The notes under the pieces were generated by a model, which saw only the letters and a list, made by a program, of their open reading frames with translations, was not told the origin of the DNA and did not search any database. Source: Streptomyces sp. NBC_00448 (GTDB lineage: Bacteria > Actinomycetota > Actinomycetes > Streptomycetales > Streptomycetaceae). From it: a stretch of 64,000 bases of DNA. This document shows, piece after piece, positions 27,222 through 32,052 of the stretch; within the stretch, counting starts at the first letter, position 1; every line of letters begins with the position of its first letter. Where the stretch lies: assembly GCF_036014115.1 (NCBI RefSeq), contig NZ_CP107913.1:1736001-1800000 (forward strand), read 5' to 3'. A program made the translations under genes and the position numbers.

Positions 27222-28496
27222 CTACTCGCGGATCGCCTCCGGCGCGACACCGGTGGTCTCCTCCTGGGCGACGTGCGCGGAGTCCGCGGACGCCTGCCGC
27301 GTCGCCGCGGAGTTCGCCGGAGTGCCGCAGAACACCGGGTCCAGGGCGGCCCGTTCGGCGGCGAAGACCGTCGAGTTGTTGGACGCGTTCGCCGAGATGG
27401 TGACCTGCCGCGCACCGTCGACCGTGGTGTAGGAGTAGGTCTGGTAGCCCTGCACGATGCCGTCGTGGCCGTACACCTGGGTGCCGCAGGACAGGGTGTA
27501 CTCGCGCATGCCGAGGCCGTACGACGAGGTCCCGGCGGTGTTCTCCGGGTGCATGGTCTCCATCTGCGCGAGCTGCGTCGCGGGCAGCAGGGTGCCGCCG
27601 GTCAGCGCCCGCCAGTACTTGTTGAGGTCCGCGGTGTCGGAGATGGCGGCGCCGGCGGTCCCGATCCACGACGCGGTCTGCTCGGTCGCGTCGAAGAGCG
27701 GCTTGGAGCGGTCGTCCTGGGTGAGGTAGCCGGTGGCGTGCGGGCCGCCGAGGCCCGTTGCGGGCACGACGTACCGCGTGTCGGTCATACCGGCCGGCCG
27801 CAGCACGCGCTGCTGGAGGTTCTCGGCGAAGGGCTTGCCGGTGACGTGCTCGATCAGCAGGCCGAGCACCACGAAGTTCGTGTTGGAGTACTGGTACTGG
27901 GTGCCGGGGGTGAACTGCAGCCCGTGGGTGAGCGCGTCCGCGACCTGGTCGGCCGGGTCGAAGGTCTCGTCGCGGAACTGCTGGAAGCCGGTGACGGTGT
28001 CGCCCACGAGAATGCCCGGCAGGTCGTTGGTGTAGTCGTACAACCCGCTGGTGTGGTCGAGCAGTTCGCGCACCGTGATCGGCGAGTCGGCCGGCAGCAC
28101 CCCGCTGGGCAGGTATCCGGCGGCGGGGGCGTCGAGGTCGACCTGGTGCGCGGCAACGAGTTGCAGGGTGAGCACGGCGTCGAAGTTCTTGGTGATGCTG
28201 CCGATACGGAACTCCCCCGCGGGGTCGACCGGCGTCTGGGCGGCGAGGTCGCCGGTCCCGGCACTGGCCGTGCCGCCGGCTCCCCCGCGGTCGCTCACGA
28301 GCGCGAACGCGCCGGGCGCGCCGGCGGTGACGACGTTCTGCAACGCCTGTTGCAGGCCCGTGTAGTCGGGCGCGGGCAGGGCGGTCGCCGGGGCGGCGCC
28401 CGCCGAGCCCGACGCGAACACGGTCGAGGCGAGGGCAACCGCGGCGGCCGCCACGACGAGGGAGCGGCGCTTGGCACCGGTGGATCGAGAAGGCAC
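27222..28496 (-). CDS. Secreted serine hydrolase (class C beta-lactamase/DD-peptidase fold)
   Basis: A 424-residue exported protein of the beta-lactamase-related serine hydrolase family. The signal peptide spans residues 1 to about 35 (AAAAVALASTVFASGSAGAA). The active-site motifs are SITK (S100, K103), YSN (203-205) and an HDG in place of KTG near GHDGIVQGYQTY. The family includes D-alanyl-D-alanine carboxypeptidases, D-aminopeptidases and esterases; the exact substrate is unclear. The GTG start at 28496 follows GGAGTC and directly precedes a good signal peptide, so the longer frame was rejected. Confidence 0.87.
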   Translation of the reverse strand: MPSRSTGAKRRSLVVAAAAVALASTVFASGSAGAAPATALPAPDYTGLQQALQNVVTAGAPGAFALVSDRGGAGGTASAGTGDLAAQTPVDPAGEFRIGSITKNFDAVLTLQLVAAHQVDLDAPAAGYLPSGVLPADSPITVRELLDHTSGLYDYTNDLPGILVGDTVTGFQQFRDETFDPADQVADALTHGLQFTPGTQYQYSNTNFVVLGLLIEHVTGKPFAENLQQRVLRPAGMTDTRYVVPATGLGGPHATGYLTQDDRSKPLFDATEQTASWIGTAGAAISDTADLNKYWRALTGGTLLPATQLAQMETMHPENTAGTSSYGLGMREYTLSCGTQVYGHDGIVQGYQTYSYTTVDGARQVTISANASNNSTVFAAERAALDPVFCGTPANSAATRQASADSAHVAQEETTGVAPEAIRE

Positions 28497-28730: not shown

Positions 28731-30329
28731 CTACGCCTCGCTGAGGAGCGGGTCGTAGGCGGTGGAGCGGGCCCGGCCCGCCATGAAGGAGAGGAAATCC
28801 TGCACGAACGCGCTTCGGGAGTACCGGACTTCACCGTCCGTCATGGTGCGGCGGAATCCGGTACGGAACAGCGCCCGGTACTCCTCCGCGTCGATGACCT
28901 GGTTGCCGTCCGCGTCGGTGACGTCGAAGAGCACCTCGGCGACACGGATCAGCGCGGGCCCGGCGAGGGACGGCACCGCGGCGGCGTACTCCTCCGCGCT
29001 GATCCGGCCGTCGCCGTCGATGTCGAGGTCGGACTGGAGTTCCTTCCACCAGGCGGCGAAGGCGTTGTAGAGCCGGGTCTCCTCCGGCTCGTCCAGATCG
29101 AGCCGGGAGGACAACTCCCGTGCCATCGCGGCGAGATCGGGCCAGTCCAGATAGCCGTCGCCGGTCTGGTCCAGCACCTCGGTGAAGAACTCGGCGGCGC
29201 TCCTGGTCCCGGCCTCCCCCCGTACGGGACCGCGCTCCCGGTCCCGGTCCTGCTCGCTTCCCCGTGCGGGACCGAGGTCCTCGTCGTGCTCGTGGCCGCG
29301 CGGCCCGGGCAGCGGCACGACCAGCCGGAACAGCGCTCCGGCCCGCTTCACCTGGTCGCGCAGCGCGTTGAGCGTCGCCGCCTGGGGGTCGTCGCTGTCC
29401 GGGGTGAGGTAGAGGAGGTTGGTGACGCTCTCGGTCCGCACCCAGCCCTCGGGCAGGAAACGGGCCAGGCCGGCCGCCATGTACGCACCCTGCATCAGCG
29501 TCTGGGCGCCCGGCGTCTCGGGCAGCCCGGCCCGGCGGCGGAACGGCTCCGGCAGGGACGCCACGGTGATCGTGCCGATCACCGGTCCGGCGAGCGCGCG
29601 GCCCGCGGCCCACACGGTGGGCAGCGCGTCCAGCAGGGGCGGCGCCGGAAGGTGGTCGAAGAGCTTGTAGAGGATGACGCGCACCGCGTCCGTGCTCTCC
29701 AGCTCCTCCTCGACCACGCGGTCGTAGTACCGCCAGAACTCCGGCAGGGTGGGCGGCAGATGACCGCCCGTGTCACCCAACGCGGCCAGGTACGCGAGGA
29801 ATTCGGCGTACAGCCGCGCCATCGTGGCCTGGTCGAGCGGCTGTCCGCTCAGCCGGCACATGGTGACCGAGCTCTCGAAGAGCGTGGCGACCACCCAGGC
29901 GCGGACCTCGGGGTCCATGGCGTCGTAGGCGCGGTTCTGGGCGTCGGTGCCGGACAGCCTGGCGTGCAGGCGGTTGAGGCGCGCGGCCTCCCGCTGCCGG
30001 ATGTGCTCGTCGGGGCCGAACATCCGCTGCAGGCTGACGAGGGTGTTGCGCAGCCGCCGCCACGGATGGGCGACGAACGTCGAGTTGTCGATCAGGGCGG
30101 CACCCACCTGCGGGTGGGCTGCCTCCAGCACGGTGGCCCTGACCACGGCCAGCGCCCAGCGCGGGTCGTCGAAGAACCGGTGGAACTGCGAGTCGGGGCC
30201 GAACAGGGACTCGTCCGCAGGGACTTCGGGTCGGGGCGCCGAAGGGGCGCCGCCCGGACCGGTGTTCGTCGGGCCGCCGCTCCTGGGGCCGGTGCGCCTC
30301 GCGCCGCTGCTGCTGCCAACGTCCGTCAC
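28731..30329 (-). CDS. MpaB/DUF2236-family oxygenase with C-terminal EF hands
   Basis: A 532-residue fusion. Residues 40-345 are an MpaB/DUF2236-type heme-oxygenase-like domain (related to latex-clearing proteins), with AHPQVGAALIDNSTF and RLRNTL. A charged linker (345-375) leads to three EF-hand loops: D387-D398, D436-E447 and D472-E483, the last two canonical for calcium. Family members usually carry a His in WVHATL, a likely heme ligand; here it is WVVATL (V147), so heme binding may differ. The GTG start overlaps the stop of the upstream prenyltransferase gene (GTGA). The N-terminal 40 residues are disordered. Confidence 0.78.
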   Translation of the reverse strand: MTDVGSSSGARRTGPRSGGPTNTGPGGAPSAPRPEVPADESLFGPDSQFHRFFDDPRWALAVVRATVLEAAHPQVGAALIDNSTFVAHPWRRLRNTLVSLQRMFGPDEHIRQREAARLNRLHARLSGTDAQNRAYDAMDPEVRAWVVATLFESSVTMCRLSGQPLDQATMARLYAEFLAYLAALGDTGGHLPPTLPEFWRYYDRVVEEELESTDAVRVILYKLFDHLPAPPLLDALPTVWAAGRALAGPVIGTITVASLPEPFRRRAGLPETPGAQTLMQGAYMAAGLARFLPEGWVRTESVTNLLYLTPDSDDPQAATLNALRDQVKRAGALFRLVVPLPGPRGHEHDEDLGPARGSEQDRDRERGPVRGEAGTRSAAEFFTEVLDQTGDGYLDWPDLAAMARELSSRLDLDEPEETRLYNAFAAWWKELQSDLDIDGDGRISAEEYAAAVPSLAGPALIRVAEVLFDVTDADGNQVIDAEEYRALFRTGFRRTMTDGEVRYSRSAFVQDFLSFMAGRARSTAYDPLLSEA

Positions 30330-31228
30330 AGGTGGGTCTCTCCGTTCGGGTGCGGGGTCACGCCGCCGAAGCGGCGATCGCGGTGCTGGTAGGCGCGTAC
30401 GCACTCCAGGAAGTGCGGCGCGCGGAAGTCGGGCCAGAGCACCGGCGGGAAGATCCACTCGGCGTAGGCGACCTGCCAGAGCATGAAGTTGGAGATGCGC
30501 TGCTCGCCGGACGTACGGATCACGAGGTCCACGTCCGGGGTGTCGGGGAACGGCAGATGGGCGGCGAAGTGCCGCTCGTCGACGTCCTCGGCCGGGGTCG
30601 CGCTGCGGATGAGGGAGCGCGCCGCCTCGACGATGTCCCGGCGGCCGCCGTGGTCGAACGCCACGGTCAGCGTCATGCCCCGGTTCGGCGCGGTCAGCGT
30701 CATCAGGTCGGCGAAGTCGCGGGCCAGTGGCGCCGGAATCCTCGGGTCCGTGACGCCCAGGAACCGGCAGCGGATGCCGCGCGCGTGCAGGAGCGCGGCG
30801 TGCTTGCGCACGACCCGGCGCACCAGCCGCATGAGGAAGTCGACCTCGCTGCTCGGGCGGCGCCAGTTCTCCGTGGAGAACGCGTACAGGCTCAGCCACT
30901 TCACCCCGGCCGACCGCGCCGCCTCGATGACCTCGATCACCGGCGTCTCGGCCGCCCGGTGGCCCGACGTCCTTGGCAGGGACCGCTGTTCGGCCCATCG
31001 GCCGTTGCCGTCCATCACGCAGGCGACGTGCCGCGGTACGGCCCTCGGCCGCCCCGCGCCGGGGGGACGGGGAGAGTCGGGCGGGCGGGACGGATGCGGA
31101 CGGGCCTGCGCCGGGAGCGCGGAGGCGGCCGGGTCCGCCGGCGGCGCGGCGACCGGGGCTGAGGCTGAGTCCGGGGCCGGAACTGGGGCCGGAATCGGGG
31201 CCGCACCGTCTCGTTCGTCGACCGTCAC
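30326..31228 (-). CDS. cis-Prenyltransferase (UppS-like isoprenyl transferase)
   Basis: A 300-residue Z-type polyprenyl diphosphate synthase. After a disordered Ala/Pro-rich extension of about 65 residues come the conserved regions: MDGNGRWAEQR with catalytic D73, GHRAAE, SLYAFSTENW, VAFDHGGRRDI and IRTSGEQRISNFMLWQ. It condenses isopentenyl diphosphate onto an allylic primer in cis. The usual housekeeping UppS of Streptomyces lies elsewhere near core genes and lacks this extension, so this is probably a paralogue. A GTG at 31228 with a G-rich ribosome binding site was preferred. It is translationally coupled to the MpaB-type gene. Confidence 0.85.
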   Translation of the reverse strand: MTVDERDGAAPIPAPVPAPDSASAPVAAPPADPAASALPAQARPHPSRPPDSPRPPGAGRPRAVPRHVACVMDGNGRWAEQRSLPRTSGHRAAETPVIEVIEAARSAGVKWLSLYAFSTENWRRPSSEVDFLMRLVRRVVRKHAALLHARGIRCRFLGVTDPRIPAPLARDFADLMTLTAPNRGMTLTVAFDHGGRRDIVEAARSLIRSATPAEDVDERHFAAHLPFPDTPDVDLVIRTSGEQRISNFMLWQVAYAEWIFPPVLWPDFRAPHFLECVRAYQHRDRRFGGVTPHPNGETHL

Positions 31229-31402
31229 ATGTGCCCCCCGCTGTCCGCGCACACTCCCCCCGCCGCGGACCGGCCCGGCAGGGCCCGACCGCGATCGGTT
31301 CGGCACTCAGCAGAGTGCCCACCCCGGGGCCCGGGCACAGGAAGATCGGCGGGGATTCACCCATAGCACGCCAGCCCGATTATTCGGCGCCCGCTCCGCC
31401 GC

Positions 31403-31792
31403 TCAGCGAGTGCCCGCCGCGCCGCTCAGCCGCTTGAGGGCGTCTGCGGACGGGCTGCCCGGGGCCGTCTGGTGGACGATGACCACCTGCCCCTCGGCGC
31501 CCGCGACCGTGAGCGCCTGCCGCCGTACCGCCAACTCCCCGGCCACCGGATGCGCGAACCGTTTGAGCTCGTCGCGCGACGGGCGGACCTCGTGCCGCGC
31601 CCACAGCCGCCGGAAGTCGGCGTCCGCCGTCAACTCGTCGACGAGCCGGGCGGTTTCGGGGTCGCGCGGGTCGCCCTCCGCGCGCAGTGCGGCGGCGGTC
31701 TGCGCGGCGACCTCCGGCCACTTCGGGAACAGCCGGCGGATCTCGCGGGCGAGGCACACGTCGCGGACCAGGTTGCGCCCGGGCTCGTACAT
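31403..31792 (-). pseudogene. XRE/MmyB regulator remnant (ligand domain only)
   Basis: About 130 codons matching the C-terminal MmyB ligand-binding half of XRE regulators: MYEPGRNLVRDVCLAREIRRL, LWARHEVRP, KRFAHPVAGELAV, GQVVIVHQTAPGSPSADAL. The helix-turn-helix half and promoter are absent. Beyond 31792 the homology stops and the sequence continues into the opposite-strand SDR remnant. The intact regulator at 16168 shows what is missing. The frame itself stays open to 31864 but the extra residues are not MmyB-like. Confidence 0.75.
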
Positions 31793-31804
31793 CGGGGCGA
31801 GCGC

Positions 31805-31948
31805 CGACGTCACCCTCGAACTCGTCGACACCGGCGAACCGCCGCTCCGGCTCTTCCTCGGCACCTGCCCCTATCCCGTCGTCGAAGCGGCCTACCGGCA
31901 GCGGCTCGACACCTGGAACGCCTCGCGCCCGCCGGCCGCCAAGGCGTG
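31805..31948 (+). pseudogene. Short-chain dehydrogenase remnant (C-terminal end only)
   Basis: About 46 codons resembling the C-terminus of SDR-family oxidoreductases: DTGEPPLRLFLGTC, then a helix AAYRQRLDTWNASRPPAA, followed by the stop at 31946-31948. The Rossmann domain, catalytic Tyr-Lys and start are gone. It directly abuts the XRE remnant on the opposite strand. Confidence 0.65.
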
Positions 31949-32052
31949 ACCGGCACGGCGTGACCGATACGGCTGTGACGTGGCTGCGTGCACTCCCCCG
32001 GTCCCGGGCGCGCGGGCGGCGCGGTCTTGCGTGACTACCGACCGTATGCGCC

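Follow-up and report, generated by a model that had tools for sequence, protein, structure and literature searches.

The window analysed here, 64,000 nucleotides (nt) of Streptomyces sp. NBC_00448 (contig NZ_CP107913.1, positions 1,736,001 to 1,800,000), carries two overlapping genes on its minus strand, one for a cis-prenyltransferase (PT) and one for an EF-hand oxygenase of the MpaB/Lcp class (OX). On balance, these probably form a self-contained, calcium-responsive two-gene unit that makes an isoprenoid and then oxidises or cuts it. PT (30326..31228, 300 amino acids (aa), GTG start at 31228) is the first gene and OX (28731..30329, 532 aa, GTG start at 30329) the second. The stop of the former and the start of the latter share the 4 nt GTGA (30326..30329), an overlap suggestive of translational coupling. 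The original prediction of a Z-type prenyltransferase joined by GTGA to an MpaB/DUF2236 oxygenase with three EF hands agrees with these coordinates, with the Pfam matches and with the EF-hand loops described below.

Co-occurrence of PT and OX

The original prediction would lose its ground if the two genes stood together in this strain only, which is not so. A search of 394 genomes of the family gave some OX match at E≤1e-20 in 211, and in 82 an OX orthologue with an identity of at least about 63% that extends into the EF-hands (split over two contigs in G039). Genome G050 has an OX at 46-47% identity, G256 a remnant only, and G365 a full copy as well as a remnant. All 85 orthologous OX places (L018-L101, L211) were inspected. 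PT lies directly upstream of OX on the same strand in 83 of them, and from a possible start codon an exact 4-nt NTGA overlap is found in 80 of these 83 intact places. The other three pairs are adjacent but spaced differently: L022, L100 and, close to the end of its contig, L093. A one-strain coincidence is rejected by the 83/85 adjacency, and the exact overlap in 80/83 adds to this in countering chance adjacency. PT also adjoins OX in 10/10 of the loci L008-L017, at least five of which are on the same contigs as places among the 85.

Both places without PT are OX remnants. One (L101, G256:C1, 1438040-1438984) retains aa 203-532, the other (L211, G365:C13, 6767-7159) aa 43-150 followed by aa 498-532. 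These are decaying copies of the unit.

The converse, PT without OX, was examined in 25 genomes of the genus (the window's own and 24 others) and in plasmid records. Comparing PF01255 and OX matches by position, 15 of these genomes hold both genes and 10 neither, the ten having no PT match of 654 nt and no OX orthologue. Four extra cis-prenyltransferases were inspected (three from the OX-less ten, G021, G051 and G124, and one from G091), none of which is pair-type. On plasmids, OX occurs at 60-80% identity in seven records, and the same seven hold PT at 80-90%; PT matches in 50 other plasmid records are all below 60% identity. The window's own genome (one contig, 9.65 Mb) contains four cis-prenyltransferases and three MPAB_Lcp_cat genes.

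In another family of the order (f77), an EF-hand oxygenase was found in 3 of 14 genomes (G785, G790 and G791). Two of these, G785 and G790, have an OX of 44-47% identity with an adjacent PT of 66-67%. Three cis-prenyltransferases are present in G785 and G791, and two each in G790 and the remaining 11 genomes. In a phylum-spread sample of 396 genomes, full-length OX orthologues were found in three, all from the window's family, by which a wide spread of the pair is rejected; this sample included none of the f77 carriers, and rare carriers elsewhere could be missed.

Mobility, divergence and upstream element

Four of the annotated plasmids, linear and circular, were inspected. They have differing genes around the pair, which is annotated as ‘uppS’ and ‘oxygenase MpaB family protein’. 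Leaving aside shadow frames within the pair, no other neighbour occurs in more than 6 of 58 long-flank loci (loci below 11 kb were dropped, and at least one genome, L017 = L096, entered twice). A larger conserved cluster is therefore rejected. The commonest extra neighbour, in 6/58 loci, belongs to a beta-lactamase-like hydrolase family.

Distances were compared in 14 genomes, the 15 genus carriers minus G135. PT and OX distances correlate with r=0.80, whereas against another synthase, presumed to be the housekeeping one, PT and OX give r=0.12 and 0.05; genome pairs are non-independent, correlation is expected between linked genes, and the presumed housekeeping synthase varies little. It is this contrast that speaks for joint movement of the two genes. 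Changes at third codon positions outnumber those at positions 1 and 2 in 15/15 comparisons, as would be the case under purifying selection. The OX catalytic domain is the least changed part at codon positions 1 and 2 in 5/5 comparisons. From these comparisons, the pair looks like a self-contained unit that moves among Streptomycetaceae and also occurs in a second family of the order.

Ahead of the pair, a conserved element (...GTGCTATGGGTGAAT...) is located at 31341..31378 on the minus strand, with a motif around GTGCYAxGGGTGA that lies 60-500 nt ahead of the PT core. Seed sites were present in 72/86 loci and absent in 14. A matrix built from one half of the set was applied to the 56 loci of at least 8 kb in the other half. 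Its top match had the expected position and strand in 52 of them and missed in four, although agreement is inflated by close relatives among the loci. With a matrix built without the window, 31341-31378 is the best match of the whole 64 kb, scoring 30.9 versus 7.5 for the next. No match of the element to a known regulator was made. It is a possible promoter or operator that travels with the pair.

On either side, other genes are observed. A beta-lactamase-family serine hydrolase (27222-28496, minus strand) adjoins the pair. Upstream, within 31403-31960, a minus-strand fragment of an MmyB-like regulator (Pfam MLTR_LBD, profile positions 45-168/168) and a short plus-strand remnant, which has no Pfam match, stand back to back; this arrangement next to the pair resembles a deletion scar.

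The prenyltransferase

PT matches PF01255 over all 219/219 profile positions (E=1.4e-73), and its best relatives among solved structures go by the names of trans,polycis-polyprenyl diphosphate synthase and decaprenyl diphosphate synthase. In E. coli UppS, the catalytic residues are D26, H43, N74, R77, R194, R200, S202 and E213. All counterparts are retained in PT, as D73, H90, N121, R124, R238, R244, S246 and E257. Based on this family and the intact residues, PT would make a Z-prenyl diphosphate.

Other motif positions set PT apart. After exclusion of hits below 180 letters or with stops, 102 pair-clade and 36 other rows were reduced to 91 and 34 distinct sequences. The glycine of GHxxG (E. 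coli Gly46), present in 34/34 other cis-prenyltransferases, is replaced by Ala93 in PT (30950..30952) and by Ala in 88/91 of the clade. In place of Ala143-Asn144-Tyr145 of UppS, PT has Phe191-Asp192-His193 (30650..30658), with Phe in 91/91, Asp in 87/91 and His in 91/91 clade members, versus Tyr at position 145 in 34/34 of the others. PT thus lacks both the GHxxG glycine and the Tyr of Asn-Tyr-Gly, which all 34 others retain. Since the PF01255 profile and the catalytic residues fit despite Ala93 and His193, PT is by our reading a variant cis-prenyltransferase subfamily. The clade of pair-type sequences is separate from other cis-prenyltransferases with a support of 98/99, the E. coli row carrying a long-branch warning. 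The two f77 pair PTs share the His, whereas their GHxxG motif has its glycine. UppS Ala143 is, we take it, a product-tunnel position; because PT has Phe there, our guess is a shorter product.

The original prediction had given the prenyltransferase a long N-terminal extension. This stretch is indeed open in the window, with possible starts in frame at codon 1, at codons 71 and 72, and 8 and 26 codons ahead of codon 1; the conserved core begins at codon 65. As a family trait, the extension is ruled out: a candidate start lies one codon ahead of the conserved core in 61/86 loci, and the four annotated plasmid copies are 229-239 aa long. The AlphaFold model of PT is poor (mean predicted local distance difference test (pLDDT) 67.7).

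The oxygenase

The catalytic domain of OX (MPAB_Lcp_cat, aa 51-283, 29481..30179) matches PF09995 with E=7.1e-48 and 164 bits, the cut-off being 23. In the available text of two papers, the Lcp class is defined by Arg164, Thr168 and His198 of LcpK30 (PMC6311187, PMC5522427). The proposed equivalents in OX, set by motif order and spacing rather than by structure, are Arg92 (30054..30056), Thr96 (30042..30044) and His122 (29964..29966), the latter as proximal haem ligand. All three are conserved in 36/36 orthologues. In a wider alignment of 30 rows, Arg92 and His122 are invariant and Thr96 is kept in at least 90%, otherwise being Ser. OX is probably haem-b-dependent; for oxidised Lcps, a Soret band at 407-412 nm is reported in PMC6311187.

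As a latex-clearing protein, OX is ruled out. The residue before Thr96, which corresponds to the distal ligand Lys167 of LcpK30, is Asn95 in 36/36, and no secretion signal was found in OX by a simple hydropathy scan (19-residue maximum 0.94 over the first 60 windows). By the same simple scan neither PT nor OX has a signal-like hydrophobic stretch, so the OX substrate is probably internal.

EF-hand Pfam families match OX between aa 385 and 490. Using 12 residues with ligands at positions 1, 3, 5, 9 and 12 as the loop definition, three loops are recognised in OX and in the 36 orthologues, with position 9 varying in 7/36. Loop 1 (aa 387-398, 29136..29171) has Asp at position 12, its ligand positions being kept in the 36 orthologues, and loops 2 (aa 436-447, 28989..29024) and 3 (aa 472-483, 28881..28916) are canonical and likewise conserved. 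A fourth loop, at about aa 497-508, is degenerate. The 50 Foldseek matches listed for the OX model are all EF-hand proteins, the top one being S. coelicolor 3aka, with no oxygenase among them; we take the C-terminal region to be the part that was matched. It is the EF-hands that lead us to propose calcium binding and calcium control of OX. As for the rows compared, alignment A2 excluded L012, L014, L025 and L029 (long or doubtful frames), one comparison step excluded L018 along with the duplicates L020, L022, L023 and L027, and the 30-row alignment A3 comprises the window, 19 of 98 pair-type rows and 10 of 12 wider rows.

Wider EF-hand oxygenases

Next, an oxygenase tree was constructed from 15 pair rows, 27 of the 28 other EF-hand rows (L178 was too short) and seven rows without EF-hands. 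The 42 EF-hand rows form one clade apart from the EF-hand-less oxygenases (100/99), in which the OX of the pair clade is supported by 100/100. On different branches outside the pair clade, the oxygenase of two loci is accompanied by a squalene/phytoene synthase (PF00494, E=3.1e-23 and 3e-25) as well as by a cis-prenyltransferase. In L104 (6520-9687) these make a compact one-strand row of prenyltransferase, squalene/phytoene synthase and oxygenase, and in L198 (3530-6989) the squalene/phytoene synthase is divergent from the prenyltransferase-oxygenase pair. In G791 of family f77, the oxygenase opens a contig right after a stretch resembling the C-terminus of a squalene/phytoene synthase (47% over 66 aa), and a cis-prenyltransferase ends another contig, so that the gene order is likely the same as in the one-strand row.

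The oxygenase tree fits either one ancient link to a cis-prenyltransferase followed by losses or repeated gains. Several EF-hand oxygenases are tied by gene neighbourhood to isoprenoid synthesis, and no such tie is seen for the majority. The squalene/phytoene synthase and cis-prenyltransferase beside relatives of OX favour an isoprenoid substrate.

A second type of EF-hand MpaB-class oxygenase was also observed, without a cis-prenyltransferase nearby and mostly with four EF loops (L102, L103, L105-L107, L142, L178, L180-L197 and L199). A single genus of the family (g14) accounts for 14 of them.

Proposed function and alternatives

We propose that the pair acts as a self-contained two-gene operon. 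PT, as a divergent cis-prenyltransferase, would make a Z-type prenyl diphosphate, from which a host phosphatase may free the prenyl alcohol. OX, predicted to be cytosolic, would oxidise this prenyl chain or its alcohol, as its family and its linkage to PT suggest, and most likely by cleaving a C=C bond to give an oxo-isoprenoid. The EF-hand domain, which is like calerythrin and S. coelicolor 3aka, would make the OX step calcium-responsive, and translational coupling would keep PT and OX in step. The pathway suggested in the original prediction is supported in part: joint presence and absence, the overlap, parallel divergence and the relatives with squalene/phytoene synthase favour one isoprenoid pathway, and the residue triad of the class is present. 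A bolder version, which we offer only tentatively, is that the pair stands for a new class of small, mobile isoprenoid pathways. The PT subfamily would then be dedicated to supplying a calcium-gated haem oxygenase with a nascent Z-chain to cut, and the short oxo-isoprenoids so formed would be an undescribed family acting as signals, volatiles or antibiotics. A related form with three genes would first couple chains head to head via squalene/phytoene synthase.

Several observations weigh against the proposed function. Outside the pair clade, 26 of the 28 EF-hand oxygenase loci are without a nearby cis-prenyltransferase, so such an oxygenase need not act on a locally made chain. Neighbouring bacterial genes often overlap by 4 nt, and the overlap alone therefore says nothing on a shared substrate. 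Among the 58 loci, neither a phosphatase nor a tailoring enzyme is found repeatedly next to the pair. Concerning the chemistry, the distal ligand of LcpK30 is replaced, as said, by Asn95, a profile search gave no solved relative of the OX catalytic domain, and the AlphaFold model of OX is poor (mean pLDDT 60.0), so that no haem pocket could be examined.

The alternative that survives best keeps the common isoprenoid pathway but makes OX a hydroxylase, epoxidase or desaturase instead of a C=C-cleaving enzyme. With Asn for Lys167 and no solved relative of the catalytic domain, Lcp chemistry is not safely carried over to OX. The accessible accounts of Lcp, MpaB and Nro1 nevertheless report or propose C=C cleavage for each, and we regard a non-cleaving OX as unlikely, though worth keeping in mind.

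It is rather improbable that OX degrades polyprenyl carrier lipids, its own or those of a competitor, while PT resupplies or protects them, in a lipid-carrier turnover or conflict module. A patchy, plasmid-borne two-gene layout would suit such a module, as would the resemblance of PT to polyprenyl synthases and the three other cis-prenyltransferases in the same genome. PT is however ahead of OX in 83/83 intact places, the Phe at the presumed tunnel position (E. coli Ala143) suits a shorter product better, and two OX relatives stand beside squalene/phytoene synthase, a biosynthetic family.

Little credit is given to a linkage that is regulatory only, with different substrates under a shared promoter. 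It would account for the conserved upstream element and for the 26/28 other EF-hand oxygenase loci without a cis-prenyltransferase neighbour, but hardly for the one-to-one retention of the two genes with nothing else retained, nor for cis-prenyltransferase linkage on two other branches of the EF-hand clade. Finally, the conserved EF loops would allow OX to be a non-catalytic calcium-sensing regulator or scaffold for PT, which is barely credible with Arg92, Thr96 and His122 invariant in 36/36 and the catalytic domain least changed at codon positions 1 and 2 in 5/5 comparisons.

If the make-and-oxidise function is true, about one fifth of the sampled family genomes (83/394) hold a two-gene isoprenoid pathway, and the MpaB/DUF2236 class gains a native bacterial biosynthetic substrate. 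It would also mean that calcium controls an enzyme of bacterial specialised metabolism, and would offer a two-gene tool for oxidised or shortened Z-isoprenoids. The pairing, its mobility and the relatives with squalene/phytoene synthase make the pathway idea directly testable.

Comparison with known systems

No published description of the PT-OX pair was found in the literature searched, most subscription journals being outside it. The unit therefore looks undescribed, in line with the original prediction, which knew of no pathway with this pair. Bacterial haem oxygenases that cleave C=C bonds were reportedly treated by Purwani in 2024. Judged by titles or the start of abstracts, the DUF2236 papers found are mostly about rubber.

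According to the available parts of PMC5522427 and PMC6311187, LcpK30 resembles OX in the DUF2236/PF09995 family, in the equivalents of the Arg/Thr/His triad and in belonging to an isoprenoid-directed class. Unlike LcpK30, OX has Asn95 for Lys167, no signal-like stretch, an EF-hand fusion and its own cis-prenyltransferase. Fungal MpaB and Gordonia Nro1 share the Pfam family name with OX, and C=C cleavage is reported or proposed for them in the accessible text of PMC12724181. As described there, Nro1 differs in being membrane-bound and 323 aa long, too short for the EF-hand domain of OX, and the same text mentions no coupled cis-prenyltransferase for MpaB or Nro1, unlike OX.

PT is similar to E. 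coli UppS/IspU and to PDB entries 6ime, 2vg2 and 7cpm in PF01255 and in the catalytic residues. In contrast to UppS and the decaprenyl synthases, it belongs to a separate clade, has GHxxA and Phe-Asp-His for Ala-Asn-Tyr, and is accessory, partly plasmid-borne and coupled to OX. High among the Foldseek matches for the OX model stand the S. coelicolor EF-hand protein (3aka/3akb), calerythrin and sarcoplasmic calcium-binding proteins; unlike in all of these, the EF-hands of OX are fused to an oxygenase domain.

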